Positions 42 to 55,078 of a stretch of 64,000 bases of DNA are shown piece after piece. Position 1 is the stretch's first letter; the number at the start of each line of letters is the position of its first letter. The stretch is from Membranipora membranacea (Eukaryota; Bryozoa; Gymnolaemata; Cheilostomatida; Membraniporidae). The notes under the pieces are model-generated. The model ran no database searches. It was not told the DNA's origin and saw only the letters and a program-made list of their open reading frames with translations. The DNA is taken from NCBI GenBank assembly GCA_914767715.1, contig OU612073.1, forward strand, positions 9,982,001-10,046,000, in the 5' to 3' direction. The position numbers and the translations under genes are program-made.

Positions 42-5073
<5,032 letters not shown>

Positions 5074-6322
5074 CTTCTTGTTGTTTATTCACTGCAACAG
5101 GGTACAGTCTGAGCTATCATAAGCAAGTCAATGATCAATTTGAGTGTACTTTGTTGAGAAGAAGAAAATCGTATTTTCCTTCTCAAACTGTAGTGCCACA
5201 ACTTAGCGATAATGTCGCAAAATTGAAATAAATAGACAAATCGGATGGGTTGTGATGTAATTCAATAGCAAGTTGTCTTCTTTTGTAGGCAACAAAATTA
5301 GAGAAGACGACTTGACGGTTTGTATACACATATAAGAATAATTTTGGTATTGCCTGCCTTTGGTTCGCATGATTGTGATCATACCTGACAAGTCTCCCTT
5401 TTTGGTAGGGAGCCTCCCAGCTTTTAGGTGTATTTTCTACCTCCTCCCTATCTCCCTTTTTCCTTCCTTTTTCAGCTTCCTTCACCCAGAAGACTTTTTA
5501 AGCTTCTCGTTGCAAGAAAGACTATGTTTTCTTTCCCCAACAGTACATATACCTATATATAATTGTCTATTAACATACTATCTCTCCTCTTTCGGATAAA
5601 GTGCAACAATATAATTTGTAAAATCAGGTAAAATTACGCATTTCATAATATGAACGCTCTAGTTTTGGCTTTAAATAAATGACAACAAGGGCCGAATTAC
5701 ACCCCCCCCCCACTGCGGGACGCGCAGAGTGGTACTTCGGGTCGGAAGTTCGTCCGCCGACACCTCCTGATTTCTTGGTCTACCAACTTGTCATGTATGA
5801 TTGTGATAAGTTTCTCACCTTTGTTTTTCTGAACAGAGGAGCAATGGAAATAATCTGAAATATACATGGCATTTTGTCACTAAGACTGTTTATCTCTGAG
5901 ATGTTGTGGTTATAGCGCTTTTGGAGTTCTAACTCTCAAATATTGGGGCAATGTCATGGGTGTTGTGCCTCAATACTAAAAGTGTTACTTGTGACTTGAT
6001 CATGTGTTTAAAAAAAGTTAGAATTGATTTTACTCCTTGAATTGGCGCAGGATCACCTCAAATAGCCGCTTATTGAAGTGCCAATACCTACCTCTAGCAA
6101 TATCACTCAACAACCACATAGGCAACAAGCTGGGTTCTAGATTGAGTATTGATGACCCTTTCCTAATTCCCTTGCTAAACTCAAACCAACAATATTTTCA
6201 TGACAAAAGAAAAATATGTCAATATAAAATGCTTCACAAGGGACATACTTTTTTAGAGTTCTATGCTTTGATTCATATCATGTTGAAATTTCATCAGTTT
6301 TGGTAACATATATCGATGATTA

Positions 6323-12120: not shown

Positions 12121-13114
12121 ACAGCGGTCGTCGGGCTGTGGCTCAAACTAAGACAATACTTGATATAGTTCTAAGAAAAGTTGTAAATTGTAATATGATC
12201 TCTTGCTTAGCACTTTTTATACCAATATCATATTTTTTTATTTAATTTTCTCCAAGAGCTACATGCTTATCTGATGCTATTTGTTTCACTTCTGCAATAT
12301 TTACTCATTTCTTTCAATTACTGTTGATTTAATTGTTATCCCTGAAAGAGAAACAGATTGAATTCCTAAACTATCACGACTGAGATACAACTATGAGTGG
12401 AAATGACACTGAAAAGTCTAATTAATCCCATCCAAATTATCTTTCTAGAATAGAGCCACCTCAGGGATTATCTGCTAAACTGATTGACTTACAATCAGAC
12501 AATTAAAGAGTGATTTATAATCTACCAACAGCTTTGTGATCCTTTGATTAGAAAATTCCTGTAAAACGAACAATCTCCACTAAATAGCAGCAACTGTCCT
12601 TTTTTTATTAACACTTTTCAAGCAACAGGAGTTAACAATAGGTAGGATTACAGTTTGCGTGTAAACTCGGTGTCTAAATTATTGTACAGAACTTTGTCTA
12701 TTATTGAGTTTAACTCCACCACGGCGATCACAATAATCACATTATGACGGTCGAACGCTGCATAGAAGTTCTGTACTCTGCCTATCTCTTGTTTTTGGTT
12801 GTACCCCATCTTCTGATTCGGTTTGTGGCAGTTTTCAATGACAGCAATAACTTCTATAATGGGAGTTCTCCTTTCTTGACTGGTTCTACATTCCTAGGGC
12901 AAATGACAACCTTTTAGATATGTGAGTATGTATTGTTTAATCGCTAGTCCATTTATATCCTGTTGTTGAGGGTGTTATAGCTTTAACTATCGAACAATTC
13001 TCCAACGAGCTAACCTAGCTTTTTGGAGCTGCACATTGTGGTGTTGTGATAGTAGTGATTAAGAATTACAGCGAGTGAGTAAGTGTAAGACATTTCCCAT
13101 ACAGCACGTCTCAG
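12121..13114. other. Intergenic, 3' flank of metalloproteinase gene
   Basis: AT-rich sequence with no recognisable exon or repeat family. No strong AATAAA close to the metalloproteinase stop was seen. It ends at the SINE target-site duplication. Confidence 0.55.
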
Positions 13115-13128
13115 AACACCAGAGTATT

Positions 13129-13365
13129 CTCGCTTCTCGCTTCTCGGCCTATTGGCTAAGATCAAAGTGTCACTGCCAATGGCCGATTAGTGCCAGCTCA
13201 GTTTTTGGCAGCTTGCTGCACACTTATGATTAGGAGGTCCTCTATGGCCTCACCTCTAGGATGCATTCTAGTTTTTTAGAATGTATCACATTCTCAGTAT
13301 GAGGATTGGGGCACTTTGCGTCCCTCTTTAGGGGCAGCCCAATCTTCTGTTTCTTAGCAAACAGC
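13129..13365 (+). mobile_element. snRNA-headed SINE (U2-derived 5' end), copy A, with 14-bp TSD
   Basis: The element begins CGCTTCTCG then CTTCTCGGCCTATTGGCTAA and GATCAAAGTGT, which follows the first 30 or so bases of U2 spliceosomal RNA (ATCGCTTCTCGGCCTTTTGG, CTAAGATCAAGTGT) with very few differences. After that it no longer resembles U2: the branch-site-pairing segment GTAGTA is absent. It continues into a body of about 190 bp shared with the copies at 40171-40401 and 40413-40650. The 3' end is a small hairpin, CTGTTT-loop-AAACAG, with no poly(A). The 14-base string AACACCAGAGTATT is present at 13115-13128 and again, perfectly, at 13366-13379. This is the target-site duplication left by LINE-type retrotransposition. 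A short CGCTTCT duplication occurs at the 5' edge. SINEs with snRNA heads (SINEU) have been described in crocodilians; this one appears to be an independent family. Confidence 0.88.
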
Positions 13366-13550
13366 AACACCAGAGTATTGGGTCGGACTAATACCTAAAA
13401 TTTGTCTTAGCACGTGACATGGCCTGCAGCAACAAACCCTCTACTATGATTCTTTCATTAAACCGGCTACTGCCCTTGCAGAACTGAACTTTTTCTGTAA
13501 CAGGGTCAAAATTAAAATTGCAGTGATCTGAGCTGCTACTGGCTGTTGTC

Positions 13551-26200: not shown

Positions 26201-29200
26201 CTAACCTGTAGGATTCGAGACATGCGCTCAATCTGTAACTTTACGGTCTGCTGTTTTTCTTGTTCAGAGAAGATTGGGTTATTGAGCCATTGAAGTCTGC
26301 TATGGATTATTTGCATCATATCATCATGTGACTTTGCTCCATTTCTGTAAAGATAAAAGAACAAAAACAAATAAAAACTTCAATAATTGTAGTACCGCAT
26401 TTTAATGTAAATATATCATGTATCATTTACCTAAAAGCATATGCCGTCAATCTTTTGTACTTCAAAATGGCTGAATATCTTACAAATACGCTTCACTCGT
26501 ATTGTGCAATATCAGAAAACTGGTGTGGAAGTGAAATCCTCATTAAAACCTTACAACCAACAAGTTAAAAAGCGGTCATTGCTTTTTTATCTTACTGAGC
26601 AGAAAAATTTTGCGATCGACATAGATAGATTAAGTAATGTTTTTCTCCAGTCAACATCACAAGCTGTAGGGGAGGATTCAAGTTAGGATAATCGATAGTT
26701 GATAGACCTCAACAGATGCAAGTGCGAGAGAGTTTGGGACACAACATTAATGACATTATTTCGAATTAAAGTGCTCAAGCGATGGTAAGTTAGTTATCAA
26801 ACACGGCTGCTTACAAAATGGCACAAACTCTCTCAATTGCAGGATTAAGAGCACTTAGTAATTCAAAGCACTTCTCTATTGGGCCATCAAGCTTGGAGAA
26901 ATTCAGGATATATTATATGACGAGATAATATCAAGTTTTGTTGCTTTGTCTATGTTTTGATAAGTGTCGATAGACATGGGTTAATTGAACATTAATTGTT
27001 GCTATGTATAAAAAAAAGACTACACATGCCTCCCCCCCCCTCCATCTTCGAAAGAGCTGTTACCATAATTTTTCAAAGCTCATCATGACGCAAGATGACA
27101 AATTTTTTATTATAATGATTAAAGTGTCTAGGAAAGCAAAAAACAACCACTGTTCATATTAAAGTTTTGCCATTGCAATAAACAAAAGTGATTTTTTTGC
27201 ACAAAGACATTGAATGATGTAACCTAATTTAAAGCGCGAAAATCCAGGGTCTAGAAGGGTCTACAGTATATTATCTGCCCTGTCACGTGTTAACACTAGA
27301 ATATCTTTGACTACGCTACCGTTGTCCAATACTGTTTTTTGATCACTTCTAGTGTAAGAAGAGCAGCCTTGCAACTGTCCTAGGTAAGCCCGGGCTAGGC
27401 TTACTGTTTTACTGTAAGTGGATCATCATTTAAATGTGAATTTGTGACAGTGGAGATAACATACTGTAGACCCTTCTAGACCCTGGATCTTTGCACTTTA
27501 AATTAGGTTAAATCTTTCAATAATGTCTTAGTGCGAAAGAATTAACTTTTTTTGTTCATTGCAATGGCAAACCTTTGATATGAACAGTGGTTGTTTTTGC
27601 TTTCCTAGACACTTTAATAGTGTAGTCTCAACGTCAGGGTGTCAGGGTAGGAAAGTGTGAGCAACCTCAAGTGTAACACTCGTGTATTAGGTGGGGTCTC
27701 TACCTGCTACAACACAGCACAATATATTTCAATGTTCCCTCATGTTTCTTGACCTGCAACCTGCTTCTTTATGTCATGGTTTTCAAGGCATGCTGGTTTG
27801 TAGAAAATTGAGGGATGGTCTGGAAAAATTTTTAATGATGCGATCTGATTGCAAAAAATCCTTTCACAATGTATGGCATGACAGAAAAAAATATCAATGA
27901 GCATTCAGATGGGTGGTCACCCTTAGGGATACAGGTACGCCCCTAGTCTGAGCCCCCCCCAGATTCTTGCCCATCGTCCGACGTGACCTAGCGACGCCCG
28001 TCCGCCGCCCTTAGCGAGGGGCTCATTTCTCAGAATCAAGATACACAAATAGATTTATTTTGCTCACCCGACACTGTTTTGGTTGGTGCTGTTCATTGTG
28101 TTCGGGATAGCTTGCCCCTTTTCTATCAAATTTGGGTTTGGGATAGCTTGATCCTTATCTTCATGGTCCGCTACAGCGTTTGATCTAAAGAAGAAGAAGG
28201 GGGTTTATAAGAGTGTCAAAAGCGTTGTTTTATTAGATTTGTACGAGCATTTCTAATAAGAAGATCATGGTACTCAGAGTCTTGGACTGGAAAAGTTGGC
28301 TTGAATAGGTAACATCAGCATGGTAATTGGCAACTTGCACATATCTGACTCAATTCTTGGAGTGTTTTCATCTTGCATGAACGTGTACGTGAAGCATGTA
28401 CGTCGGCTAATAATCTCTTGGATAGCAATGTTTGCGGGATAAACATATAAGGGGACTTAGTGTCGTTTGTTTTTCATTTTAGCGCACTGATGTTAAAATA
28501 TAAAAAACAGGTTTAGCCCGAGTTACTCAGATTTTGGGTTCAACTCAGGCTACTCAGGGGATTTTAGAATGTAAGCTAAAAACTCAGATTTTACTCGTTG
28601 GCAGAGATGAATAATATATAAACAATGCTAAATGTTGCCTTACAATAATTTATGCCACATTATTAATGAATGATCCAGTATTAGATTCTAGTTGTGATAA
28701 GCTATGTAAATAATACTGCACTGCCTGTACTAATACCTGTAACAATACTCACTGCACTGCCTATTCAAGTCATTTCTAAATCAATGATCAAACAATGATC
28801 CCAGAGATCCCAAGAGATTATTATGGCTAAATAGAAATTGGAATTTTAGACATGTTAAAAAAGTGATTTTGCAGGTGAACCGGATAAATCCAGGCAATAA
28901 TTTCAATAGCATCACATTACATTAGCGTGATATATCGCTTTGTAAAACTTCTTAATATTGTATTGGTGATCATGTCTAATAGTTTAATTCCACAGTTGAA
29001 ACCTCCCAAATATTTGACGTTGAGTCGCAGCGACCTCTGGAAGTTTATTTTGGGGCAAAAAGTGCCCTTTTTAAATTGAACTCTCTGTGCTTTGTTTTTG
29101 AGGTATTTGATTAGTTTATGCTTTCACCTTATAGAGGAGGCATGGTACTAACTGGAGGAGTGAAATTGATTTTTGCAATAGTAATAGGGCCATTCCTGAC

Positions 29201-31967
29201 CTCTCATTACATGCGACCCCAATAGTGCAGAAACCAAAATTTCCAATGTATTATATCATTTTGGTCTTGTACTGCCACTTCCATCAATAATCTTACCAGC
29301 TAACAGATCCTGGTTGTCACAACTGTAACAGATAATAACCCAAATTTTAACTAATTTTGGTCAAAATTTTCCAGCCAAAATTCAGAAATTCAGAAAGATG
29401 TCAGTCAAATTTGTTGTCAGCATGATGAACAGCAGGAGATTGTCTAGGTTTTGATCGAAGCGATTGTTGATTATAGCTTTACATTTCGAGATATTTGGAT
29501 TGTTGTGGCTAAACAAGCTTTATTTCGTCCAAGAAATGCACTCCTCTCCAGCCAAAAAACTGAAAATAGGTTAAGGAACTTGTTATATACACTAGCTTCC
29601 ATTAAACTAGAGAGTATTTCCGAGGTTTTGTCAGTAGCATTTGATGATAAATTTAATAGTTGGAAAGTTTAAGAGCATAAACATTTCTCTTTCGATGCTA
29701 GACAATCACTCAAAATAGGTGATCCATTGTTGTACACAATGTGCTTTGCATGTAATACTGCATAGATTTTCATCACGCTTTTGCATAACGTAATTTACTG
29801 CATCATTTTGCCATTTGCTGCCCATATGTTTTCAATGTATTTTAGTTAATGCACAATTAATCAAGTTAGGAACATGCGGTTTAAATAAATTGCAATGTTA
29901 AACATAAGCCAGACTGTGAAGGAATTTTTGAGGTGGACAAGTAGTCCCTGAGAAACTGAAAAGGCGATATATCACGTTAATTATGCCTTTCTACCTTGGC
30001 GCCTCGATTCAGAAACTGAAAAGGCGATATATCACGTTAATTATGCCTTTCTACCTTGGCGCCTCGATTCCATTATTGTGCTGCTTATACTAATAATACT
30101 GTAATAATACTCTCACTGCACTGCCTATTCAAGTAATTTCTAAATCAATGATCAAACAATGATTTGTAGCATTATAGAATATCAACACTTTACACCCCAA
30201 CTGAGATGAATAATAAAGATATCATCAATTTTTTGCATGAGAATAATGTGTGGTATTTGTTGTGGGTATTTGCTTTAATTTGTGATAAGCTATGCTCTTA
30301 TTGAACTGCCAATCCCAGAGATCCCAAGAGATTATTATGGCTAAATAGAAATTGGAATTTTAGACATGTTAAAAACGTGATTTTGAAGGTGAACCGGATA
30401 AATCCAGGCAATGATTTCAATAGCATCACATTACATTAATTATGCCTTTCTACCCTGGCGCCTCGATTCGTCAGCCTTAAAATCAATATTTGTACAAACA
30501 TCATATTTTAACATCATGGGGATTCATTTTCACCTGTGGTGACGGCCTTGGTTAGTCCATAAGAATTGGTTCATCTGGATCAAATCTAAAATTATTTACG
30601 ATTTTATGTTTACAAGAAATGCTCTAGGTTTTTATTGATTTACTTGCTATCACAAACATGAAATCCCTTTTTGGCAACCTCTTCCACCGGTCCATATGGC
30701 ATACAATTGGCAACAGTGTTCAGCCTCTTCCGGTAACCTCTTTCCAATTCAGTTTAGACAACTATTTGCCCGCTGGGTATTGACTTCAAGCTGTTTATGG
30801 CATATGGCCAAGGAGCTATTGGTGACTGCATATGAGAAATTTCTAGCTCAAATTAAGCTGCAAAACAAAATCCCTGATGCCTTCTCTGGTGTTTACCTGA
30901 TCATAATCAAATAGAACCTGAACTATTTTATATCTGATATATTATGCCTTTATAATAACAAGACTACTACTATAAGGGCTTCTTTGAGGGAATTTGGGAT
31001 TTGAACGAGACATTTTTGCTCAAATCAGCTACACTGGCCAACCTATTCTTAAATATTGTGCTTAAAAATTTTAATTTTGAAACAACCCTATAACCCGATA
31101 ATTTTCAATTGACATCGTTTCCTTGGTTAATCCTTGTTTGAAATATGATAGTGTCAGGCCTTCTTGTGTATTTCTTAGGATTGAAATATTCCATTATTGT
31201 TTGATGGGTATCCCTGGCTCAAATTTTGTACATATCACTGGATAAGGTGGGTTGATTCAAGTACCAGTTATGCGTCCTCATTTAATCCATCCACTTAAAA
31301 ACTTTGACCCAGTCCAGCAAAAATTAAAACCAGTAGTATTGAATTTGAATCGGAAATAGTAAACCAAGAATCTATCGCAATCTATTTTATTGCTCTCTTG
31401 CAAGTATAACAGTTTTTGGAGAGTTATTTAACGAGATTGACACAATTGATTGTTCTGCTTGCTGCTTGGAGTTTGAAATAATACCTGTATACAGGAAGAG
31501 CTTGTATGCTGGTAAAATTTCTGATATTTGAAGACACTCAATTTTAGATTGAAGATGAAGATATCCTAGATTCCGCTTCTGTACAAAGTTGTTTGAATGT
31601 TTAGCCGAATACAAGGACGGGATTTTATAACCCGGGCAAAGTGGGATAATTTCTGATTCATAACGAGAAAGTGAGAAAGATAACTCTATAGCAACTTGAA
31701 GCCAAATACCAAAAACCAAATACTTTTATTGAACTTAGAAGAGGGTGACTTAATTATAGCTAACAGCATACTAATTCAACATTGTGAAAGGATGAACTTC
31801 CTCCTGCAAATAATGTATTCCTCTAGGGTATGTTAATATGACTTGAGTCTTACCTGACAGTCACGCTCAGGCCAACAGTCGCATCATCTGGTTTAGTGTT
31901 TATGGCCTTGTTGATAGCACTTCGACTAGCTTGTTCGGTTTCTGTGAGAAATGCTGTGGCGTTTGAT
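20244..31967 (-). CDS. Carbohydrate sulfotransferase (sulfotransfer_2 family, CHST8-14-like); 5' exon(s) not found
   Basis: Expected Golgi type II membrane enzyme that moves sulfate from PAPS to a sugar on glycosaminoglycans or N-glycans. Exons in transcript order: 31967-31854, 28184-28068, 26344-26206, 24791-24586, 23246-23079, 21009-20852, 20482-20244. All junctions keep frame, giving about 380 residues. The first two listed exons encode a low-complexity stem with several NxS/T sites. The PAPS 5'-phosphosulfate loop is WCSVPKTGTSNN (family pattern VPKxxCTNWK, with Cys replaced by Thr and the Trp-Lys changed). The 3'-phosphate loop is FVRNPWERLVSTY, close to consensus. Then follow MEPHWRPQYSF, MCDANYSYIG and the C-terminal FLYFGFPSNPI, all in family order. 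The first exon found begins mid-codon, so the start Met and the membrane anchor lie further upstream (above 31967) and were not recognised. The gene is swollen by transposons in its introns. Specificity cannot be assigned. Confidence 0.88.
20645..20843 (-). mobile_element. tRNA-derived SINE in the last sulfotransferase intron
   Basis: Read on the minus strand the element starts GGGATCAGAGATAGCTCAGT with a pol III A box (TAGCTCAGTGTTAGGGG). About 45 bases on comes a B box, GGTTCAAGCCC (consensus GGTTCGANTCC). It ends in an A-rich tail, AAAACAAAACAAAACAGG. The head begins only about eight bases after the exon 6 splice donor (20852|GTGAGT), so the insertion nearly replaced the start of the intron. 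The intron is only 369 bp and the SINE fills over half of it. Confidence 0.8.
21293..22857. mobile_element. Large inverted-repeat element with long terminal arms, in a sulfotransferase intron
   Basis: The outer arms are inverted copies of each other. The left arm, about 21293-21560, starts CACTGTATA. It contains GAGGCACTTAATTATGGTGA, CGTCACTGGAGGGTGTAG and TTGCAATAGACTCAGCAGCT. The right arm is about 22610-22857. A second inner pair repeats the AATTGCAATAGACTCAGCAG motif at about 21575-21730 and its complement at 22430-22580. This makes a nested structure of about 1.56 kb. The centre (about 21740-22420) is unique and encodes nothing recognisable. The structure suggests a non-autonomous foldback transposon; no target-site duplication is clear. 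Confidence 0.8.
25168..25310. repeat. Three tandem units of about 47 bp
   Basis: The unit TTTTAGCTAATTG(A/G)(G/A)TAATTTGTTAT-TCATT-GAATTGTGGAAAT occurs three times in direct tandem with substitutions and small gaps. It lies in the interior of the family 3 element, immediately before TATAAAA at 25310. Confidence 0.75.
25344..25410 (+). promoter_or_regulatory. Promoter-like CCAAT and TATA motifs inside a transposon
   Basis: CCAATCAG at about 25347 is followed 50 bases later by GATATAAAAGGGCGGGGG at about 25398. Spacing and order are those of a pol II core promoter. It could be the promoter of a transposon transcript or of an unseen gene. A strong short hairpin (GGAGTTGCCTTCTTCCTC with its complement) follows at about 25646-25684. 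No downstream coding exon was recognised, so function is inference only. Confidence 0.35.
27118..27618. mobile_element. Foldback MITE, about 500 bp, in a sulfotransferase intron
   Basis: The left arm starts ATTAAAGTGTCTAGGAAAGC and includes ACAACCACTGTTCATAT, then ACCTAATTTAAAG and CCAGGGTCTAGAAGGGTCTA. The right arm (about 27468-27618) carries the reverse complements in reverse order and ends CTTTCCTAGACACTTTAAT. The arms are about 150 bp each around a unique centre of about 200 bp. No coding capacity. TTAA lies at both termini but is part of the palindrome, so it is not proof of a TTAA target. Confidence 0.8.
28700..28935. repeat. Repeat segment, copy 1 (partner at 30110-30470)
   Basis: This block contains ACTGCACTGCCTATTCAAGT, TCAATGATCAAACAATGAT, then CCCAGAGATCCCAAGAGATT, GGAATTTTAGACATGTTAAA and TTCAATAGCATCACATTACA. 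It recurs at 30110-30470 in the same order. The second copy carries an inserted stretch of about 140 bp (30165-30305). Both are in the large intron between the sulfotransferase exons at 28184 and 31854. Confidence 0.8.
29951..30070. repeat. Perfect 60-bp tandem duplication
   Basis: A 60-base unit beginning AGAAACTGAAAAGGCGATAT and ending GGCGCCTCGATTC is present twice without a mismatch, 29951-30010 and 30011-30070. The last 40 bases of the unit occur a third time at about 30434-30470. The identity suggests a very recent event, or an assembly artefact. Confidence 0.9.
30110..30470. repeat. Repeat segment, copy 2 of 28700-28935
   Basis: Same order of blocks as 28700-28935 with an internal insertion, and it ends with a partial third copy of the 60-bp unit (TTATGCCTTTCTACCCTGGC). 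The whole 28.7-30.5 kb interval therefore looks like one dispersed repeat that has duplicated and recombined. Confidence 0.75.
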
Positions 31968-33009: not shown

Positions 33010-33780
33010 CCTCAGGCTAATGCCACCGCCTCTGAAGCAAACAAAATGGTCTATTTGTTATCGAAACCAAAAAATACATGACAGTAAACATCTCATTGAA
33101 GACTTACAAATCACTGATCAGACCTGTAGTACAATACTGCTCATCATCGTACCTTGATGGTTTGGCCAAAAATTCAGAAACATTAGAAAAAGTACAAAAT
33201 AAAGCAATCAGAATCGAAACTCCAGCCCCCAAACAATTTTCTGTCATATCTGGTCGCTTACTCCTAAATTTACATACTCTCCACAGTAGAAGGAATTTTC
33301 TTTTTCACAATTTTGTCAACTCGAGGGTCCATAAAGGCCATGCATCCAAGCACATACTTCATCTCGTTAGCAAATCAAACAGACATACACAATCACTTCT
33401 TAGCAACTGTGCAATAATTAAACCCTCATTTAGATCAAACCTAGGCAAATCAACCTTTTTAAATATTTTTCATACATTTGTAACTAAATCAACCAAGCCT
33501 CATGAATCATTATCATTTAATCCTACCTAATGTTGTTAACTTGTATTTTTGTTTGCCACTCTCTGTTTCTTCTTTTCTTTTTTCATCTTATTCATGCAAT
33601 TTATGATACCATACTTTCATTATCCTACACACTATATAGTATGTAACACCCTACCACTTATAACTTTTTATTCAAGTCATTTTTTGTATCTATGTTAATG
33701 TGTGTGAGGTCAACAAGTTATTTTTAATTTGCTTTAATTATAAAATTTTAGAAAACCTCAATAAATAAATAAACAAATAT
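33010..33780 (+). mobile_element. 5'-truncated CR1/L2-type LINE, C-terminal end of reverse transcriptase
   Basis: The open frame at 33078-33530 (150 codons) has the post-catalytic signature of non-LTR reverse transcriptases: TYKSLIRPVVQYCSS, then LEKVQNKAIRI and SRRNFLFHNFVNSR. Upstream, in another frame, ANATASEANKMVYLL resembles the preceding helix, so at least one frameshift separates the two parts. The polymerase motif with the catalytic Asp pair is missing. After the stop the sequence runs into an AT-rich 3' UTR and ends in the simple tail AATAAATAAATAAAC, as these elements do. It is a dead copy between the sulfotransferase gene and the 42-kb receptor. Confidence 0.85.
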
Positions 33781-38400: not shown

Positions 38401-40170
38401 AAGCCATGGGTCAGTCTACTATTGTCGGCCTCAGTTTGTGAAAATGAATCAGAATGCACGGAATAGAAGGCTCTAAGCCCAAAAAGACAGGCATAATGAA
38501 GCTTACAGATTTTTTAAGGTGGGTATGACTTAACATAAGTAATAACTATTATGTATTATGGAATTGAAAAGTAAAATCGTTCATAGATACCGTGTCTTCT
38601 AAAATTTTTAAAATATTATACCAATGGGCTAGCCCTCCAGACCTCTGTTGAACCTCCCTCATTGATTAGCTAGACAAAGCAGAAGTTCATTTCAAACTAT
38701 TGATACACCACTGTAAAGAGTCAGTTATTCCAACCTCTGTCAGATTAAAAGAGAACTAACTAACCGCTAATCGCCCTCCAACCGCCCACCCCCTTCCATT
38801 AACCGCTAACCACTACGCCCTAATCTACAGAAATAACTTTCTGATAACCTCTAGCAGAGTGGGACATGACAGGGGTTTCGTTAGGGCAAGTGAGTCCAAT
38901 TGGAAGACAAGATAATCAAGAGTTGAGTTGAGATGTTATTATGATTCAAAGAGCATCGCACACTGCAGATTTATTTATTTTAGTTTTTTAGATTTGGCAA
39001 TCTAAATCCTTTGAGGAAATCTTTTTTCATATTAAGTGTCAAAACTAAAGAAAATGTACAAAAAAGAGAAAAATGTATAATAGTGAAAGAAGATCTGCAA
39101 TATGGGCATACATATTAAATGGTAAACCTTGTTAGGATGTGAATGCTGGCCCTAAGTTAAGTTTAACACTGTATACCATGCAAAGCCAGCTGTGCTGTCG
39201 AAGTTTGACGTGACATATCATACCTTGCCCCACAAAGTCGCAATAAAATTTAATGATTGTTCCCATTGACGATTGAGCAAATTGTTGAGACATAGTTTGA
39301 ATTATTCATAGTTGAATCGATAATCTCTATATTATGTCTAGTGAATACTTGGTTCGTTCTATAAACACTTAGCAGCACAACCACAAAAAAACTCATTTAT
39401 TTTGAATGTCATCTGACATGCATCTACTATCTACTATCTCCATAGTATTCAATAATTTAAAAAGGCTTCTGTCGATCGAGTGATGCCCTATTAAAACTTG
39501 GTATTATGAGCGCGCAATACAATTTTTAGAGAAGATATGACACCTATTGTTTTCTGTGTATTTAGCCGAGCGGTCATGTCTCACTTTGTTTTTCTACAGT
39601 GCCCCAGCAGCCAAACCACTTAACTAAAAGCAATTCGGTTACAGTAGGGTAAAAACCAGGTCTCATGACAGCGGGAAAAGCAAATAACATCTTACTAAGC
39701 TCTTAGATGCAAAAGTTGGATGGGTTGTATGGTCACTTTGAATCATAAGGTAACTATTCTGAATATCTGATGTTAACCTATACCATAATAGGAGTGCTCA
39801 TTATATATGTTACAGTATGTTTGATTTTTCAGCACAGATTTGTCAACCAAATAGTCATGTTATACAGTTACTTAAGGAGACAGTCATTCATCAACTTCCC
39901 ACTATGAAGCCTGGTAGCTTCAAACAGTATGCATATGTTCGAATGAGAGCTGATCAAATTAGGTCATGACTCGTCAAAACTCTTTTGGGGATACTAATTC
40001 TTCATTATCTACATGCAACAAATTTTGGCAACAATATATCACATATATATATACTCTTTAAGAAAAGAGCAGGGACTGAGCTGGTTACCCAGCCCCCACG
40101 TACTAAGACGTGAATGACTTAAAAAAGGCATAAATTTAAGGTATCATCACATCATCACACATCATTATCT
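35456..40170. other. Gene-poor, AT-rich stretch with local duplications
   Basis: No exon of a known family was found on either strand. A motif, (A/C)GCTTAGAAATCAT(T/C)GTTCTA, with its flanks occurs at about 37565-37620 and again at about 37830-37880. This indicates a tandem duplication with a period of about 265 bp. Another pair, TAGCCGAG(C/T)GGTC-type sequence followed by CAGCAGCCAAA, occurs near 37995-38110 and 39565-39615. The open frame at 36913-37158 resembles nothing I know. Confidence 0.5.
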
Positions 40171-40401
40171 TGCTGTTTATGACAAAACAGAGGGTGGGCT
40201 GCCCCTGAAGAGGAACGCAAGTTGCCCGAAGTCCTCATACTGAGAGTGTGATACATCCTAGAGAACTAGAATGCATCCTAGAAGTGAGGCCATGGTGGAC
40301 CTCCTAATCATAAGTGTGCATCAAGCTGCCAGAAACTGAAACAGGCACTAATCAGCCATTGCCATGACGCTTTGATCTTAGCCAATAGGCCGAGAAGCGA
40401 T
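40171..40401 (-). mobile_element. snRNA-headed SINE, copy B (best-preserved U2 head)
   Basis: Read on the minus strand it starts ATCGCTTCTCGGCCTATTGG then CTAAGATCAAAG. This equals the U2 snRNA 5' end except for one substitution and one inserted A. The body then follows copy A at 13129-13365 (GATTAGGAGGTCC, GGATGCATTCTAG, GGGGCAGCCCA). The 3' end again forms CTGTTT-loop-AAACAG and has no poly(A). ATCATTA flanks both sides (about 40161 and 40400), a possible short target-site duplication. A second copy abuts it at 40413. Confidence 0.85.
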
Positions 40402-40412
40402 CATTACATCGC

Positions 40413-40650
40413 CCTGTTTATGACAAAACAGAGGGTGGGCTGCCCCTAAAGAGGGACACAAGTTGCCCGGAGTCCTCGTACTGAGAGTGTGATACATCCT
40501 AGTAACTAGAATGCATCCTAGAGGTGAGGCCATGGTGGACCTCCTAATCGTAAGTGTGCAGCAAGCTGTCAGAAACTGAAACAGGCACTAATCAGCCATT
40601 GGCCATGACACTTTGATCTTAGCCAATAGGCCAATAGGCCGCTATGCGAC
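40413..40650 (-). mobile_element. snRNA-headed SINE, copy C, head-to-tail with copy B
   Basis: The body is nearly identical to copy B over about 200 bases, including the 3' hairpin. The head has decayed: the minus strand reads GTCGCATAGCGGCCTATTGG with an extra CCTATTGG duplication before CTAAGATCAAAGTGTC. Only about 12 bases separate the two copies, and they are in the same orientation, so either one inserted beside the other or the pair arose by tandem duplication. Confidence 0.82.
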
Positions 40651-42030
40651 ATCAAAATATTAGACTTTGACAACAAACCATAAAATATTGCACGTACTGT
40701 TCACATGGGTGGACATAGCCAGTGCTGGTTGTTTCCATAAATCCAGTGAATCCATTAAGGCCTCCCCTGTATGTATCATGTATGGTATGGCTTGATAAAA
40801 TTATGCCTTTTCACTCATTTATGTTGCTACACATTATTATTGATACTGCTATAAAGAAAGTGAGTTGTGTTTATTGTCGGTTGAGGGAGACAAAACCAAA
40901 TACCTTGTTGTGAAAGAAATGATGTTCCAGTTAGAAGATTTAATTTATTTGTTGTATAAAGGAGGCAAATTATTGTTTATGATGTAATGGATAGCAATTC
41001 TTTCGGTGCTATTGACAAATCTTTAGACTGACAGTGTAAATTGCCCCTTGTGAAAATGAAGCTCTGGACAGTCTAGAGACAATAATGTGAATGTTCACCC
41101 GGGGACCTTTATCCAGAGACATAAAGACACATATTTCACAAAAAATCAGGGCAAAATACAAACCAAAAACATTATGTAAACATTTGTTGGACATGATGTG
41201 ATGACACTATCGAAACTATTGTCTGCATCTCTTTAGAGTCAAACTCCACCATTAAGTTGTAGGCTCGCAAAATCCAAATTTTGGCACTGAGAGAAATCCA
41301 GTGGTAACAGGAGACAGGATTGACATCATCAAACCAGAAGGTCTTTTATAAAGAAATTCATCAGTGATTACAAAGAGTGTTATAATGAGGATTGCCCCAT
41401 CTATCGATTGAAAAGTGTTTTTTTTCCGCTTGCAAAAACAGTATTAATGGATGAATCAAGCAGACACATTTTAGCAATATTGCATTATTATAGCTCAATC
41501 AATATTTCCCCAGTATTCTGAAGCTGGCTTCATATGTGTCATCATTATTAGAAATTATATTTTACATATTTTCCTTTGTGTCATATCAACAGGCCAACTC
41601 AAGATGATTTTAATGTTTCACAATCAAACTATTAAATAATATGAATTTTATTTTCCAATAAAGTCACCTGGACATATATCTATGATACAATGACAATAAA
41701 AAAATCAAAGTGAATTTAAAAAAGAATTTTCACAATAATCACCAATGAGTAAAATCATCCAATAGATGGTGCAATAAAAGGAAAAAATATTCATCACGCA
41801 ATGCAATTAAGCTCAGCCAAAAGAAAAAAAAAAATTTTTCAAAATACATTTTATCATTTGGGTTGACGATTCAATGTTTTGTGAACAGATATTCTATGTT
41901 AATTTATGTGCTGAATAACAACATAAAAAATCCAATAATGGCCTATAATTTTTAGATGGGTGAATTCTTGATATGATATCTCATATTGATGGCCAACTAC
42001 CCCACTTCGATCAGCAATTCAAAAGAACAA

Positions 42031-43193
42031 TCAATTTTGACATGGAAAAATTCTAAAAACCAATTTCAACGTCTCTCTGTATTGTTTGTTCATGATGCCA
42101 TAGATGATAACATTCAAAATAGCATATGCATCATCGTGTAAAAGCCTGGCTGTTTTCTTAACCGCCTTTGGCAACTCATGATTCCTTCGTATAATGTACA
42201 GGGGAATGAGGCAGAGCAGCGAGATAACACCAATTATCATTATGTAGATGACAGCTAGTACTAACCCACGATCTCTGGGTTGGCCAGCTGATAGGTTGCC
42301 AACTTTCCTCATGGATATAAGTTCTCTCAATGTCAAAGGTATGGTAAAGAGCATGACAAGAAGTGCTGGGAGCAGCTGAGCTTCATACTCGATAAAGACT
42401 TTCTCAACCAAGGATGTCTCTTCATGTCTCCTTCTTACTTTTCTGTCATCACTTCCACCACCATCTGGTTTGATGGTGTTGTTTCTGTCACTGATTCCTC
42501 CTCTGTCAAATATCCCTCCTTTTTCTACCTCACCTCCTTGTCCTCCCCCACCACCTCCTCTTCCACCACCACGTCCTCCTGGGCCTCCTCCTTCACCACC
42601 GCCTCCTCCTCCCGGACCTGGTGGACCTCCTCTTCCACCACCACCTCCCAGACCTCCTCTTCCCCCTACACCTTCTCCTCCTGTGCTGGGTCATTAGATC
42701 TCATACCTATCTCTTTGGTCACAATGAGACCATAACACAGGGCATGCAGACAGACAGCCAAAACCAGCACAATCTTACCTACGTTTAACACAACTAAATT
42801 GGTTGGATGCTTAAAAGGGTAGCATAACGCCATGTAGCGCTCGAAGCAGCCTAGAGCAGTGATGTAGTAGCGCATATGTGTACTACTGCGAAGGCAGGTA
42901 ATCCAGAGCGACTCGACATACAGTTCTTTCGACATATAACGTTCATAAAGTCCACTATCCTCAACAGTTTTCAATGCACTGAAGTATATGTCAGTCAAGG
43001 CCATAGCTACTAAAACTTTTCCGCTAGGTCTAGACCAGAGACCAGGCATCTTCAACAACAAACCTGTGTGCAGTATATTTGCCACCATCACGAAGCCATG
43101 CCAGACTGCTGGGATGATGGTCCAACCAAATGTAGATGGCATAATCAAGTCTGTGAATGAGTTCTTCTCCAAATTTCTTATCAGTGTTATCAA
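42031..43193 (-). CDS. Single-exon rhodopsin-class 7TM receptor with Gly-rich loop and a frame break
   Basis: Predicted G-protein-coupled receptor in two pieces. The first piece, 43193 to 42666, gives TM1-TM4: VLVAMALTDIYFSALK is TM2, and TM3 ends GCFERYMALCYPF, with ERY for DRY and the usual hydrophobic ICL2. The second piece, in another frame from about 42690 to 42031, gives a loop of about 85 residues. It starts with almost pure Gly (GGRGGLGGGGGRGG), then acidic and basic residues. TM5 (LLPALLVMLFTIPLTL), TM6 and TM7 follow (AILNVIIYGIMNKQYRETLKLVF, with NVIIY for NPxxY). The loop sits where extracellular loop 2 should be. The first frame reaches a stop at 42666, inside the GGA-repeat tract, so an indel there or an unusual splice is required. 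It lacks introns otherwise, unlike its neighbours. Similar in style to FMRFamide-type receptors; ligand unknown. It may be a recent pseudogene or an assembly error. Confidence 0.75.
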
Positions 43194-43314
43194 ATGATGA
43201 TGGGATCATTCCTAGTGTCTTTATATACTATGGGCAAGTAATTGCTAATGATGTAAAATACTAATTATTAGAATAATAAATGAACACCATCAACATGTTT
43301 ATAAGGTTAAGTTG

Positions 43315-44793: not shown

Positions 44794-45370
44794 TCACCTT
44801 AATGCAAATTGTGTTTTAGGGTTTCGATATGAATCTATTTTGAGTGTTTTCTCTCTGATTTTTGAGTAATTTGGGCAGTCAAAAATAAAGTGAATATTTG
44901 TATCTGATACCGCACCACATTTAGGACAGGATGACTCGTCAGCGATGTTCATTTGGTTTAAGTGTTCTCTGAATGCACCATGACCTGTGATAGTGTTTAC
45001 AACATATGACGGAAGTGGCTTTCTGAGTTGCAACAGGGGTTTCGATAATTGACCCTTGATATGTCTAGTAATGGTTTTGTTTTTGAACATTTCTTTGAGT
45101 TGAACCACTCATCTTCAAAAGAGCTGATAGCTTGTTGTTTGATCATTTGTTTTATGACTGTTTGAGCAATAGGGGGTGAGGGTTCAGCTCATCAGAATGC
45201 TCATTACCATCAATCCCAGAGTGCGCAGGGACCCAGATAAGAGTGATGAAGTTACTCTTCACAAGGGTATTTAAGTTGTGTATGCATTCGTGTTTGGTTT
45301 TCGTTCTAACTTCAGGGTTTTGAAGGGACTGGAGTGAAGAGAGACTGTCTGTAATTATAGCTATTTTTCT
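44794..45370 (-). mobile_element. Decayed LINE fragment: RNase H domain and C-terminal Cys/His motif (I/R1/Jockey type)
   Basis: Minus-strand reading from 45370 down gives KIAIITDSLSSLQSL, then LIWVPAHSGIDGNEHSDEL, the RNase H core with TDS and the WVPAHxGxxGNExAD pattern. In a different frame from 45108 come TITGHGAFREHLNQM, then CPKCGAVSDTNIHFIFDCP, the typical C-terminal CCHC end. Frameshifts separate the parts and the reverse transcriptase is absent. RNase H is found in the I, R1 and related clades of non-LTR elements, so this is a different LINE from the CR1/L2-like one at 33 kb. Confidence 0.82.
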
Positions 45371-45399
45371 ATTCCTGGAACCAACCTGAGATATTTATA

Positions 45400-50494: not shown

Positions 50495-52663
50495 ATGACA
50501 AAATCACTAGCTCTTGTTCTTGCTTGTTGTATACTTGTTCTGGCTGTTAATTCAGGTAAGGGTTTTGTTACTGTACGGCTCACCTATTGAATTAGCATGG
50601 ATGAATCCACACTGCAGTCTCAACCATCCATAAAATGAGTACTGATGCTAATAATGGCACAAAATCTTATTTTTGAACACAGCCTTACTGTATATCTCGT
50701 GTTTTGTATGGTTTGAACTACTGGTATTTCTGTTGCGCTTTTGGTGAAAAAGTAAAATTCAAGGTATATTTGAGGTGGCGATCGAGTAGATTTCATGACG
50801 GTAGGTTTGTTGCGCAGACACTAAAACTGTAATATGTGATTTGTGGTAGTTGTTTGCTAGTCGGGATAATATCGAGAATACCAAATTGATACTGCTGTAT
50901 CACCAAACAAAGCAGGGGCACGGCAATTGTGGTTGCCTGCAGTGAACTTGTTTTATGATCATGTTTTCTGTTTCTGCGAAACTCCCCAAATTTAAACTCC
51001 GCTGTCCAGCCATTACTTTCAAGAACTCAGTGCTTTGCAAAGGGTCGATAACTTTCTTCAATTGCTTTCAATCTCAATTATATTATAAATTTATGTAATG
51101 TATTCCTTTAATCTCAGTGAGTGCTAAGAAGAGATGCCCAGCTGTTAATCCATTCCAAGTAGGTATCTGTGAACATGGGTGTGGATCAGATGCTGACTGT
51201 GGAGATGGTAAACTCTGCTGCAGAAATGGTTGTGGAACTGTCTGCAGTAATGGTGTAGAAGGTAAATACAAATATCATGTCGTATGACCTCATTTAAATG
51301 TGTACCATGAGGATTGCTAGAATTCTGTCTTGTTTACATTAAGCTATTATATATATATATATATATATATATCATACTTATTATATATAATAACTATATG
51401 GTTGTATATGAACTCCTAAATAGTTGCACCAAACAGTGCCACCTATAAGGTCATAATTTGGAGTTTTGGAGTACTTTTACCAGCTATGAAAAATTATATA
51501 TCTAGTTTTCTCACAAACCATTATTTCAATGTCCCAACAAGCTATCTCAGCACCAAAGACTTCGCAAAAATCCATGATGTCAGTTCATTTTTTATTTTGT
51601 GTTCCAATTCGACTGGCTCTAACTCTAACCCTGAATGCTAAAGCGATGATCATCGTTCACCACAACTGAATAGAAATCAAGATAAATAAAGGGAAACCTT
51701 TCCTTGTTTTGAGTTTTCAATTATCTTATTTCAATCTGTTTACTTCTGAACATTACACCAGATATCTATTTCAGAAGCTGATATTCTTGCGCTACCACAA
51801 TTATTTATCAGTTAAATCTCATTAGTTTGAATCTGTCATCAAAACCATTGACACCATTGGAAAACCATCCACGTTGCTGTTAGAATCAGTCCTGAGGTTT
51901 CTATTTTGGTATTTATCTGCGTTGCAATCACAATGAATGAGGGTGACACTTCCGAAAACTTAAACTGCCACTGTATCGAAATTCTGAGTTGCTGGTATTG
52001 ATTTTGGTACCAGATAAATTGCCATTTAACTCAAGTACAGCTAGTTTGTCTAGCACCAGCTAAGAATTAAATTTAGCAAGTTTATATTTATTTTGCGGTG
52101 TTTGGTGTGGTGAATTCTATGCGAGATATCAACTGCTTTTAGGGCAAGGCTGCAATTTCTGCGCTAGTTTGCTCTTCGTTTGTAGTTTTACTTGAGTCAG
52201 GAGCACATCTGGGGGCCAACCAAACCCCAGTATCTGATGGACTGCAATGGGACTCGCGCCCTTGATATTCAACACTTGTGTGCTGAAGGACCAGCGGTTT
52301 AACCAACATAGCCACGTCCTACTCCAAGCATGTGGAGCGTATCAAACCTGCTGAACCTCAAACATCTTAGCTTGTGGCAAAAAACTGCCACGCAGGAATC
52401 ATTTGCACTGCCTTTTATTTTCAAACGATAGAATGAGGAAACAGAAATAACCACAAGTTATTTGTAAAATGAACTGACCATGAATATGATCCATTTTTAC
52501 AGATGTTGCCGTATCAGGAAAATGCCCGAAATCTAGCGGTTTGGGTGGATTCTGTGTATTCAGACCAGGAGTCAACTGTCTAAGCCACGATGAATGCCAG
52601 AGCCAAGGCAAGCTGTGCTGTTCAGAAGGCTGTGGAAAGGTCTGCAAAAGTCCGGTTGCCTAA
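50495..52663 (+). CDS. Secreted double-WAP-domain protein, copy 1
   Basis: Three exons, 50495-50555, 51118-51261 and 52503-52663, join in frame to 121 residues. Exon 1 is a signal peptide (MTKSLALVLACCILVLAVNS). Exon 2 is one WAP/four-disulfide core: KKRCPAVNPFQVGICEHG, then CGSDADCGDGKLCCRNGCG and TVC. Exon 3 is a second: SGKCPKSSGLGGFCVFRP, then NCLSHDECQSQGKLCCSEGCG and KVC. Each has the full set of eight cysteines in the order C-C-C-C-CC-C-C, and each domain is encoded by one phase-1 exon, the usual arrangement. WAP proteins are extracellular and commonly inhibit serine proteases, act on microbes or join shell and matrix proteins; which applies here is not shown. AATAAA motifs follow the stop (about 52667 and 52694). 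A near-identical gene lies 0.9 kb downstream. Intron 2 holds a tRNA-like repeat. Confidence 0.95.
52245..52324 (-). mobile_element. tRNA-like repeat (SINE head or tRNA relic) in WAP intron 2
   Basis: On the minus strand GTGGCTATGTTGGTTAAACCG resembles a pol III A box region and GGGCGCGAGTCCCA a damaged B box, about 50 bases apart. No complete cloverleaf was traced and the acceptor ends do not pair convincingly, so a decayed SINE head is more likely than a working tRNA gene. The element may extend further to about 52195. Confidence 0.5.
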
Positions 52664-53584
52664 GCAATAAAATGCAATGAAATTTTATGAGAATAAAACA
52701 TAAATATAATCATAAAATTTCAAACATACAGTCTTGTCTAAATTTCAAAGAAATTACAAGATCCAACTTGGGCTCTTACTTGAGTCTTACAGATTACTGC
52801 TACGATGATAATACTGAGCTCTAGACCTTACCTTGCCCCTATATTGACCTATCCTTACAACCAATAATTGACATCCTATCCTGAGTAAATACGATCATTG
52901 TTGGCGCTTTCGATCATAGATAAGACCTCTATTTGTCGAAAGATCAAATTACAAAGGGAATAGTGGCCCTATCAACTATCTGGACCCTCCATGGGTAAAA
53001 AGAATGAAAACTGATTCCAATTAACTACCAGAACAGCCTTTTTATAAACACCTTGAAACAACTTTTTGGTTGAGCTTTGATTCAGGGCTAGCTGACACAG
53101 AAAAAAAATACATAATTGCTCCTATAAGCTGGCAGGATAGGACCATTGATATCAATTCAAACATCAGTGAAAACACTCGGTACTGCTATTCTGGGCGAAA
53201 TACCACCAATATCATACCTAGTATGTTGTGCTGATATCATTTCTAGCCCAGTTTATAATACTACTTTTGTTATGTGAAATGACATTATTACAATTTGATT
53301 GAGTCACTCAGTCATACCATATCATACCATAGGCCAGTATCTCATATCAAACTTCAGTGGCGAGATCAAATTTACTCATGAGCCCAACATCTGCTCATAG
53401 ACATGCTTGAGTTCCTGAAGATTAATTAGAGACTGCAGCGGGACTTTAAGCAGTCCTGACGATGAATATGCGCCACAGTAAGGTTCATTTGCCATATTTA
53501 CTGCAAATATTAAGAGGTCAAGAGAAAATATGTGGCCATTCTTGATAGAGAAAGCAAAGAGCCTTGTCCTAGCAACAAAACATC

Positions 53585-55078
53585 ATGACTAAATCCCTAA
53601 CTCTTGTCGTTGCATGTTGTATAGCTGTTCTGGCTTTCAACTCAGGTAAGTTTCTTTTGTTGCTGCTACCCTTCAGCTTTTTAATCATTACGAACGTATG
53701 TATCAACGTATCAAGTACTCAGATTGCCTGATCTGATGACATGGCAGTGTTGGTGATTAGTACCAGACTATTTGTTCCGAACTTGTTAAAGGGTCAGTCC
53801 TATTAGAAAAATTGATATATTACCCCAGTAATTCAAATGTTGTGAGTTCATATAGAGCAAATAAAAAATTTTTTTAAATGAAAATTTTGGAAATTAGCAA
53901 TTAGTCTTTTTATATTATTTTTGCAAGGATCATAGAGAATCATAGTGGTCAGGGGGAGGCAATAAATCACTATGATACACTATGATCCCAATTTTCAGAC
54001 TTTGCAGCAGTTTTACTGCAATAAGGTTCACAGGCTGTTTCAATTCATACGCCGTAATGACTTTTCAGCCTGAGATCTTTAAAACCATACCAAACATGGC
54101 CTAGTAGGACTGTCACTTCAAGATTCCATCACTGAATTAAGCAATATGGTGTATCTAATACATCACATTTTATGTATTAGGCACAGCAAAAGCCTTATTT
54201 GTTGGAGACAAAAAAATAGTTAATCAATTTGAAGTGTTAATGGTAGTTGTTTTTCCGGAGAGGATACCAAATATCAATTCTGTTTCATTAAAATAAAATA
54301 GAGGCTTGGACAATTTGTAAGCCTTCAATGAGCATGTCAAATCTTGTGCATTTTTGTATCTTCATAAAACCCAAATCTTAACCTTGGCGCCAAGCCCCTG
54401 TTACCAAACCGCTGCTATTAAGAACCTCTAAATAACTACATGTACATAGCTTGCCCAAAACATAAACTGTGGTCACATGTTTTTCGCTACCAATCCATCC
54501 AATTTAGGAAAAAAGAGAAGTTGTCAGTGTTTGAAAAGAGGAAGAAAAATCTAAATATTTTGTCTTATTGATTCTGATCTAAAACAAGTTTGATCATTAA
54601 AATATTTCAGTGAGTGCCAAGAAGAAATGCCCAGCTGTGAATCCATTTCAAGTTGGTATCTGTGTACATGGCTGTAGATCAGATGCTGACTGTGGAGATG
54701 GTAAACTTTGCTGCAGAAATGGCTGTGGAACAGTGTGTTCTAATGGCGTAGAAGGTAAATAAAAACATTATATCATATGATCTGATGTCGACCATGAGGA
54801 TTTCCAGAATGTAGCTCTAACAAGTTTGGTTCCTACATTTTATTAACCTCCAAGCACAACCTATTACCAAAAATAAACTAACGGTGAAACAATGATGAGC
54901 ACCGTTTTTTGTTGCAGATGTTGCCGTGTCAGGAAAGTGCCCCAAATCCAGCGGCATGGCTGGAATCTGTGTGTTCAGACCTGGAGTCAACTGTTTAAGT
55001 CATGATGAATGCAAGAGCCAAGGCAAGCTGTGCTGTTCAGAAGGCTGTGGAAGTGTCTGCAAAAGTCCTGTCTTTTAA
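53585..55078 (+). CDS. Secreted double-WAP-domain protein, copy 2 (tandem duplicate)
   Basis: Exons 53585-53645, 54611-54754 and 54918-55078 have exactly the same lengths (61, 144, 161) and phases as copy 1 and give 121 residues. Signal peptide MTKSLTLVVACCIAVLAFNS. The two WAP cores keep all sixteen cysteines; differences from copy 1 are scattered (for example KKKCPAVNPF, CVHGCRSDADC, CPKSSGMAGICVF, the tail KSPVF). The proteins are about 90 percent alike by eye, pointing to a recent local duplication, while introns differ in length, mostly because copy 1 carries inserts. AATAAA at about 55102. Extracellular; same possible roles as copy 1. Confidence 0.95.

Follow-up and report, generated by a model that had tools for sequence, protein, structure and literature searches.

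Does the short element at 13129-13365, whose first bases resemble U2 spliceosomal RNA, belong to a family of mobile SINEs with an snRNA-derived head, or is it a decayed U2 gene? And if it is a SINE, how did U2 sequence come to stand at its 5' end? An earlier note on the same DNA had proposed a U2-headed SINE family. We addressed these questions computationally in the window, i.e., the whole 64-kb stretch of DNA that was analysed.

An exact 14-bp duplication bounds copy A

The element at 13129-13365 (hereafter copy A) consists of a U2-derived head followed by a body of ~195 bp, and is flanked on both sides by an exact 14-bp duplication. Its features are as follows:

13115..13128, plus strand: left target-site duplication of copy A, AACACCAGAGTATT (sequence, flank comparison)
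13129..13135, plus strand: extra CTCGCTT (7 bases), a tandem repeat of the head start (sequence)
13136..13170, plus strand: head of copy A, derived from U2 (nt 1-34 followed by a single A), with stem-loop I kept and an end at GTGT before the branch-site segment (cmscan, ungapped match)
13171..13365, plus strand: body and tail of copy A, unrelated to U2 (no U2 match when searched alone)
13260..13287, plus strand: inverted repeat in the body, a predicted hairpin in the folds of copies A and B (RNA folding)
13347..13364, plus strand: 3'-terminal hairpin, CTGTTT-loop-AAACAG (alignment of the three copies)
13366..13379, plus strand: right target-site duplication of copy A, identical to the left AACACCAGAGTATT (sequence, flank comparison)

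The perfect target-site duplication claimed in the earlier note is present as described, AACACCAGAGTATT being identical at 13115-13128 and 13366-13379. When random flank pairs were drawn from the window with the slack of copy A, duplications of at least 14 bp arose in 6 of 20,000, at least some of which are probably overlapping or repeat draws, and by a plain offset count we estimate the chance of such a duplication at about 1e-6. The layout previously proposed for the element holds as regards the exact duplication and the U2 head, but the head does not abut the left duplication, as seven bases (CTCGCTT, 13129-13135) intervene. Short tandem repeats occupy the first bases of two of the three heads found in the window (a 7-bp repeat in copy A, 13129-13142, and an 8-bp repeat in copy C, 40628-40650), and they look as if they had arisen by copying slippage at a U2-like stem.

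Three copies of the element lie in the window

BLAST within the window revealed two further copies, neighbours on the minus strand (40173-40650) and 87% identical to copy A. Since copies B and C were found beside copy A by both BLAST and profile search, the existence of three copies, as stated earlier for this DNA, is confirmed. The additional features are as follows:

40173..40401, minus strand: copy B, with a head that matches U2 nt 1-30 at 29/30 positions, followed by body and hairpin (cmscan, ungapped match, profile)
40400..40406, minus strand: candidate 7-bp duplication TAATGAT at the 5' end of copy B, the last two bases of which coincide with the U2 start AT
40161..40167, minus strand: candidate 7-bp duplication TAATGAT at the 3' end of copy B
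40414..40650, minus strand: copy C, whose head, judged by eye, is complete and contains an 8-bp tandem repeat, GGCCTATT (cmscan, profile)
40649..40653, minus strand: weak candidate duplication GATGT at the 5' end of copy C
40406..40410, minus strand: weak candidate duplication GATGT at the 3' end of copy C

Copies B and C share head, body, and 3' hairpin with copy A, and the pairwise identities of the bodies are 166/198 (A/B), 163/198 (A/C), and 181/195 (B/C). A profile of the three copies retrieved no fourth copy within the 64-kb window. Next to the exact 14-bp duplication at copy A, the 7- and 5-bp candidates at copies B and C are weak, being short and situated in GAT/ATG-rich sequence. With the slack of copies B and C, lengths of at least 7 bp occurred in ~0.4% and of at least 5 bp in ~4% of random flank pairs.

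The arrangement of copies B and C could also reflect one tandem duplication or one dimeric insertion, so that only two events would be seen in the window. This account is possible, and we lean against it. The two copies are adjacent, share the same orientation, and are closest to each other (181/195), and a 6-bp repeat, TGATGT, flanks the B-C pair as a unit; yet they differ at the 5' end (the 8-bp repeat occurs only in copy C) and in their 3' flanks, and copy B has its own 7-bp candidate duplication.

The head corresponds to the 5' end of U2

The Rfam U2 model begins at 13136 in copy A (38.9 bits, E = 1.3e-6) and at 40401 in copy B (35.6 bits, E = 1.4e-5), with copy C giving the weakest U2 match (21.7 bits, E = 0.03; all by cmscan). 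All three copies score under the Rfam U2 gathering score of 46, because only the first ~35 nt fit U2, and scanning the whole 64-kb window against Rfam at gathering level gave 0 matches to any family. Among genome contigs, the exact head 28-mer occurred 0 times, and a looser head pattern was found in two contigs, L001 and L002, with neither match being a SINE. L001 (1-5648), a eukaryotic-looking contig in a bacterial MAG, holds U2, U1, and 5S genes together with three histone 3' stem-loops.

With the U2 gene on L001 as reference, ungapped matches to U2 nt 1-30 amounted to 28/30 in copy A, 29/30 in copy B, and 23/30 in copy C, compared with 18/30 for the best unrelated sites in the window and 21/30 for the best of 100 Markov-1 simulations of 128 kb. 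The start of the element therefore follows the U2 5' end almost base for base in copies A and B, as had been proposed. The low count for copy C is due to the 8-bp tandem repeat (GGCCTATT) inside its head, as read by eye; with that reading, copy C starts where copies A and B start, and all three copies reach the first bases of U2. The further proposal that the head keeps the first stem-loop of U2 without the segment that pairs with the branch site also agrees with our data, the head ending at GTGT before that segment.

The head-body junction is common to all copies, reading GTGT/CA in copies A and C and GCGT/CA in copy B. One junction in three copies suggests that the head was acquired once, before copies A, B, and C spread, and was then inherited within the family. 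The head loop reads UAUU in all three copies versus UUUU in the Rfam consensus and in the U2 5' ends of L001 and L002; this loop proves little and is weaker family evidence than the junction, as the comparison is with Rfam, L001, and L002 rather than with the host's own U2. Furthermore, the extra A in GATCAAAG is not specific to the SINE: the U2 end on L002 likewise reads GATCAAA before the record stops. Identity between copies A and B was 31/32 in the head versus 166/198 in the body, a difference that is not significant (p = 0.057), and the idea that the head is more conserved than the body was dropped.

The body is unrelated to U2 and ends in a hairpin

Searched alone with the U2 model, the body (13172-13400) gave no match at E <= 10, indicating that it is not a diverged 3' part of U2. 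Consistently, the branch-site segment, Sm site, and 3' stem-loops of U2 are absent from the copies. The body is thus unrelated to U2, in line with the earlier reading, and the possibility that was named there as a refutation, namely, a full-length U2-like gene or pseudogene whose 3' part has diverged, is rejected and has next to no probability left: although cmscan aligns whole copies end to end with U2, the isolated body has no U2 match, the intact U2 gene on L001 scores 172 bits versus 38.9 bits for copy A, and the three copies have body and tail in common. Neither a tRNA-derived part nor, at E < 1 by cmscan, any other Rfam head was detected in the copies.

The 3' stem (CTGTTT/AAACAG) is identical in copies A, B, and C, with only the loop of copy A differing, and no poly(A) follows this terminal hairpin. 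According to a passage in PMC5135761, stringent-type LINEs recognise a 3' stem-loop. When copies A and B were folded as whole RNAs, z was -4.37 for copy A and -1.43 for copy B, and we therefore do not claim a conserved overall RNA fold. An inverted repeat between the head and the start of the body was dropped as well, given that shuffles were as good in 26/2000 cases for copy A, 625/2000 for copy C, and 1992/2000 for copy B. Scanning 13000-13500 for bacterial promoters and terminators gave 0 sites, a result that is uninformative for animal DNA.

Transcription may start at the first base of U2

Using the full consensus boxes, we obtained a best A-box of 7/10 and a best B-box of 6/10 in every copy, values that are frequent as best scores among 500 shuffles of copy B. 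As these matches are not above those of the shuffles, an internal Pol III promoter is unsupported. The shorter B-box consensus GWTCRANNC matches inside the head at 7/7 positions in copy B and 6/7 in copies A and C (counts without a shuffle control), and this match lies a few bases after the A-box-like TGGCTAAG; the usual spacing from A-box to B-box is larger than that. A Pol III promoter could still be provided through this short B-box match.

Pol II transcribes U2 genes from promoters that lie upstream of them, so that no known promoter comes with the head. That the copies begin at the first bases of U2 suggests transcripts starting there. Because of this start, and because a good pair of Pol III boxes is lacking, we prefer an upstream Pol II start over an internal promoter: the RNA would start at U2 +1, driven by an upstream snRNA-type (Pol II) promoter of the source locus.

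The element very probably represents a LINE-moved SINE family

We conclude that the element is very probably a SINEU-like (snRNA-headed), LINE-moved, non-autonomous SINE family, built from a U2 nt 1-34 head, a ~195-bp non-U2 body, and a 3' hairpin. Within the one window, short dispersed copies with shared ends are present (three copies of ~230 bp in two places with different flanks); against this reading, only three copies are seen in the window, two of them adjacent. The original proposal of a LINE-driven, U2-headed SINE family thus stands with respect to more than one genomic place, a common U2 head, an unrelated body, and one clear target-site duplication, whereas we infer the LINE step. 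More specifically, a LINE enzyme would copy the SINE RNA, for which the 3' hairpin or the tail probably serves as recognition signal, and insertion by target-primed reverse transcription would leave the duplication that is clear once, at copy A.

A tail-profile search of the window for a helper LINE with a matching tail returned only the three copies, the next match having E = 16. LINE remnants are nevertheless present in the window, namely, an RNase H domain at 45155-45394 and a zf-RVT domain at 44797-45108, the latter below its cut-off; the ORF at 33036-33527 resembles a LINE end by eye and matched no Pfam family. Copy A had no match in plasmids and phages, and body and head patterns gave 0 hits in viral contigs. 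If the window, which was picked because the element was noticed, were typical, extrapolation would give ~9,700-137,000 copies/Gb, or ~3,800-113,000 copies/Gb if copies B and C were one event.

Origin of the U2-body junction

The second contig with the looser head pattern, L002, is catalogued as part of the MAG of a symbiont of the lucinid bivalve genus Taylorina. It carries a LINE at 1600-5340 with RVT_1 and zf-RVT domains, whose A-rich end abuts a disrupted U2 gene and whose ORF runs off the record with no endonuclease seen, and a second, cut-off U2 5' end lies at 1-31. L002 is probably bivalve DNA with a molluscan U2-specific LINE at or near the Keno/Utopia site. When this LINE was searched in viral contigs, 1 stretch matched the pattern and none was confirmed.

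The junction itself is reasonably well accounted for by template switching, which we consider the probable origin, albeit with moderate confidence: a LINE enzyme copying an older SINE RNA would have jumped to U2 snRNA near nt 34 and run to its 5' end, or the two RNAs would have been ligated. Kojima reportedly described in 2015 that U1 and U2 pieces were repeatedly added to crocodilian SINEU. After a template jump onto U2, the 5' end of the product falls at U2 nt 1, as observed here, and both template switching and RNA ligation are proposed for U6/LINE-1 chimeras in a passage of PMC13174262. In contrast, no headless relative of the SINE body was seen within the window, and template switching by itself leaves unexplained why the join lies at the U2-LINE site.

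That site bears on read-through, which we judge to be an unlikely origin model within the SINE reading. Here, a U2-site-specific LINE of the Keno/Utopia type, or a derivative of it, would have resided in a U2 gene, and the U2 promoter would have produced a fusion RNA, with U2 nt 1-34 joined to the element, that gave rise to the SINE. The SINE head ends at U2 nt 34 and the A-rich end of the L002 LINE borders on U2 sequence that continues from nt 35 or 36, so the head ends directly at, or one base before, the L002 LINE/U2 junction. The start at the first bases of U2 and the absence of a full box pair fit read-through too, and a passage in PMC4640811 places the start of the Utopia 3' flank at U2 nt 39, that of Keno being identical. 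Such agreement suggests read-through without proving it. However, the published Utopia/Keno site lies 4 nt beyond the end of the SINE head, and the coincidence of head end and LINE site was noticed after the fact and has, by our estimate, a 3-5% probability by chance. Moreover, the SINE resembles the 3' UTR of this LINE no more closely than shuffles do (265 to 496 of 500 as good), for which reason we rejected that 3' UTR as the source of the SINE body; no relative of the L002 LINE protein was found within the window (best E = 0.76); and U2 nt 1-38, expected upstream of Utopia, was not found in Phytophthora according to the same part of PMC4640811.

Somewhat harder still to credit is the full scenario in which a U2-specific LINE broke a U2 gene and the Pol II promoter then made a U2 +1 fusion RNA, yielding a parasite able to spread with no need for an internal Pol III promoter. 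If true, a site-specific LINE would be an agent creating new SINE families.

Relation to known elements

SINEs with an snRNA head are rare, most of the known cases being crocodilian. Kojima is said to have described SINEU for crocodilians in 2015; crocodilian SINEU has a Tx1-Mar helper and a target preference for Mariner. In our window, minus-strand ORFs near the window start best matched the CDC5L chain 5mqf, which we take to be human, among the 5 and 12 chains listed, with 53/80 and 49/60 identical residues; crocodilian CDC5L is expected to be far closer to the human protein than the CDC5L of the window is. The host thus looks invertebrate, which supports the claim of a U2-headed element outside crocodilians.

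The defining passages in reviews describe SINEU as a SINE with a U1- or U2-derived head. Our element resembles SINEU in that the 5' portion of an snRNA (U2 here; U1 or U2 in SINEU) forms the head and other sequence follows; unlike in the crocodilian case, the host looks invertebrate. The U2 part of the element is nearly the same as the U2 stretch upstream of the Keno/Utopia insertion site, whereas Keno and Utopia are autonomous LINEs inside U2 genes and the SINE is short, non-coding, and outside U2. As in mammalian U6/LINE-1 chimeras (as outlined in part of PMC13174262), an snRNA is joined to the 5' end of a retroelement, but the snRNA is U2 rather than U6 and one junction is common to three copies. 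Like tRNA-, 5S-, and 7SL-headed SINEs, the element is short, non-coding, and presumably LINE-dependent; unlike them, it has no tRNA part, no other Rfam head at E < 1, and no full A/B-box match above shuffles.

A SINE_U class is named in Daphnia in a section of PMC11963560, with no sequence given there. The word snRNA is absent from the main text of the bivalve-element paper PMC10294476, PMC10886601 contains neither snRNA nor SINEU, and searches of open-licence PMC papers for snRNA-derived SINEs by phrase and for strings of the element found none. Should the family be borne out across the genome, SINEs with an snRNA head would not be peculiar to crocodilians and would have arisen on more than one occasion among animals. 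The element would then allow one to ask how a SINE persists when it has no clear Pol III promoter, and whether snRNA-headed families originate from U2-targeting LINEs.

Other content of the window

A stretch of CDC5L exon is present twice, at 351-476 and 1543-1668 (90% identity), which suggests a local duplication within the gene. A fibrinogen-C domain scored above its cut-off in the window, with matrixin and PAN just under theirs. On the minus strand at 42034-43205 lies a GPCR-like gene whose two frames have a glycine-rich stretch between them; seven relatives of its protein were found, and the closest public one is 46% identical. Two tandem copies of a 60-bp unit lie at 29951-30070 (100% identity), and a 75% copy of this unit at 30410-30469 overlaps a separate repeat pair (28798-28924 and 30312-30438, 98%). 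Lastly, dispersed repeats occur as two pairs within 51111-55071, one of 183 bp and one of 163 bp (87-88% identity), possibly a further repeat family.
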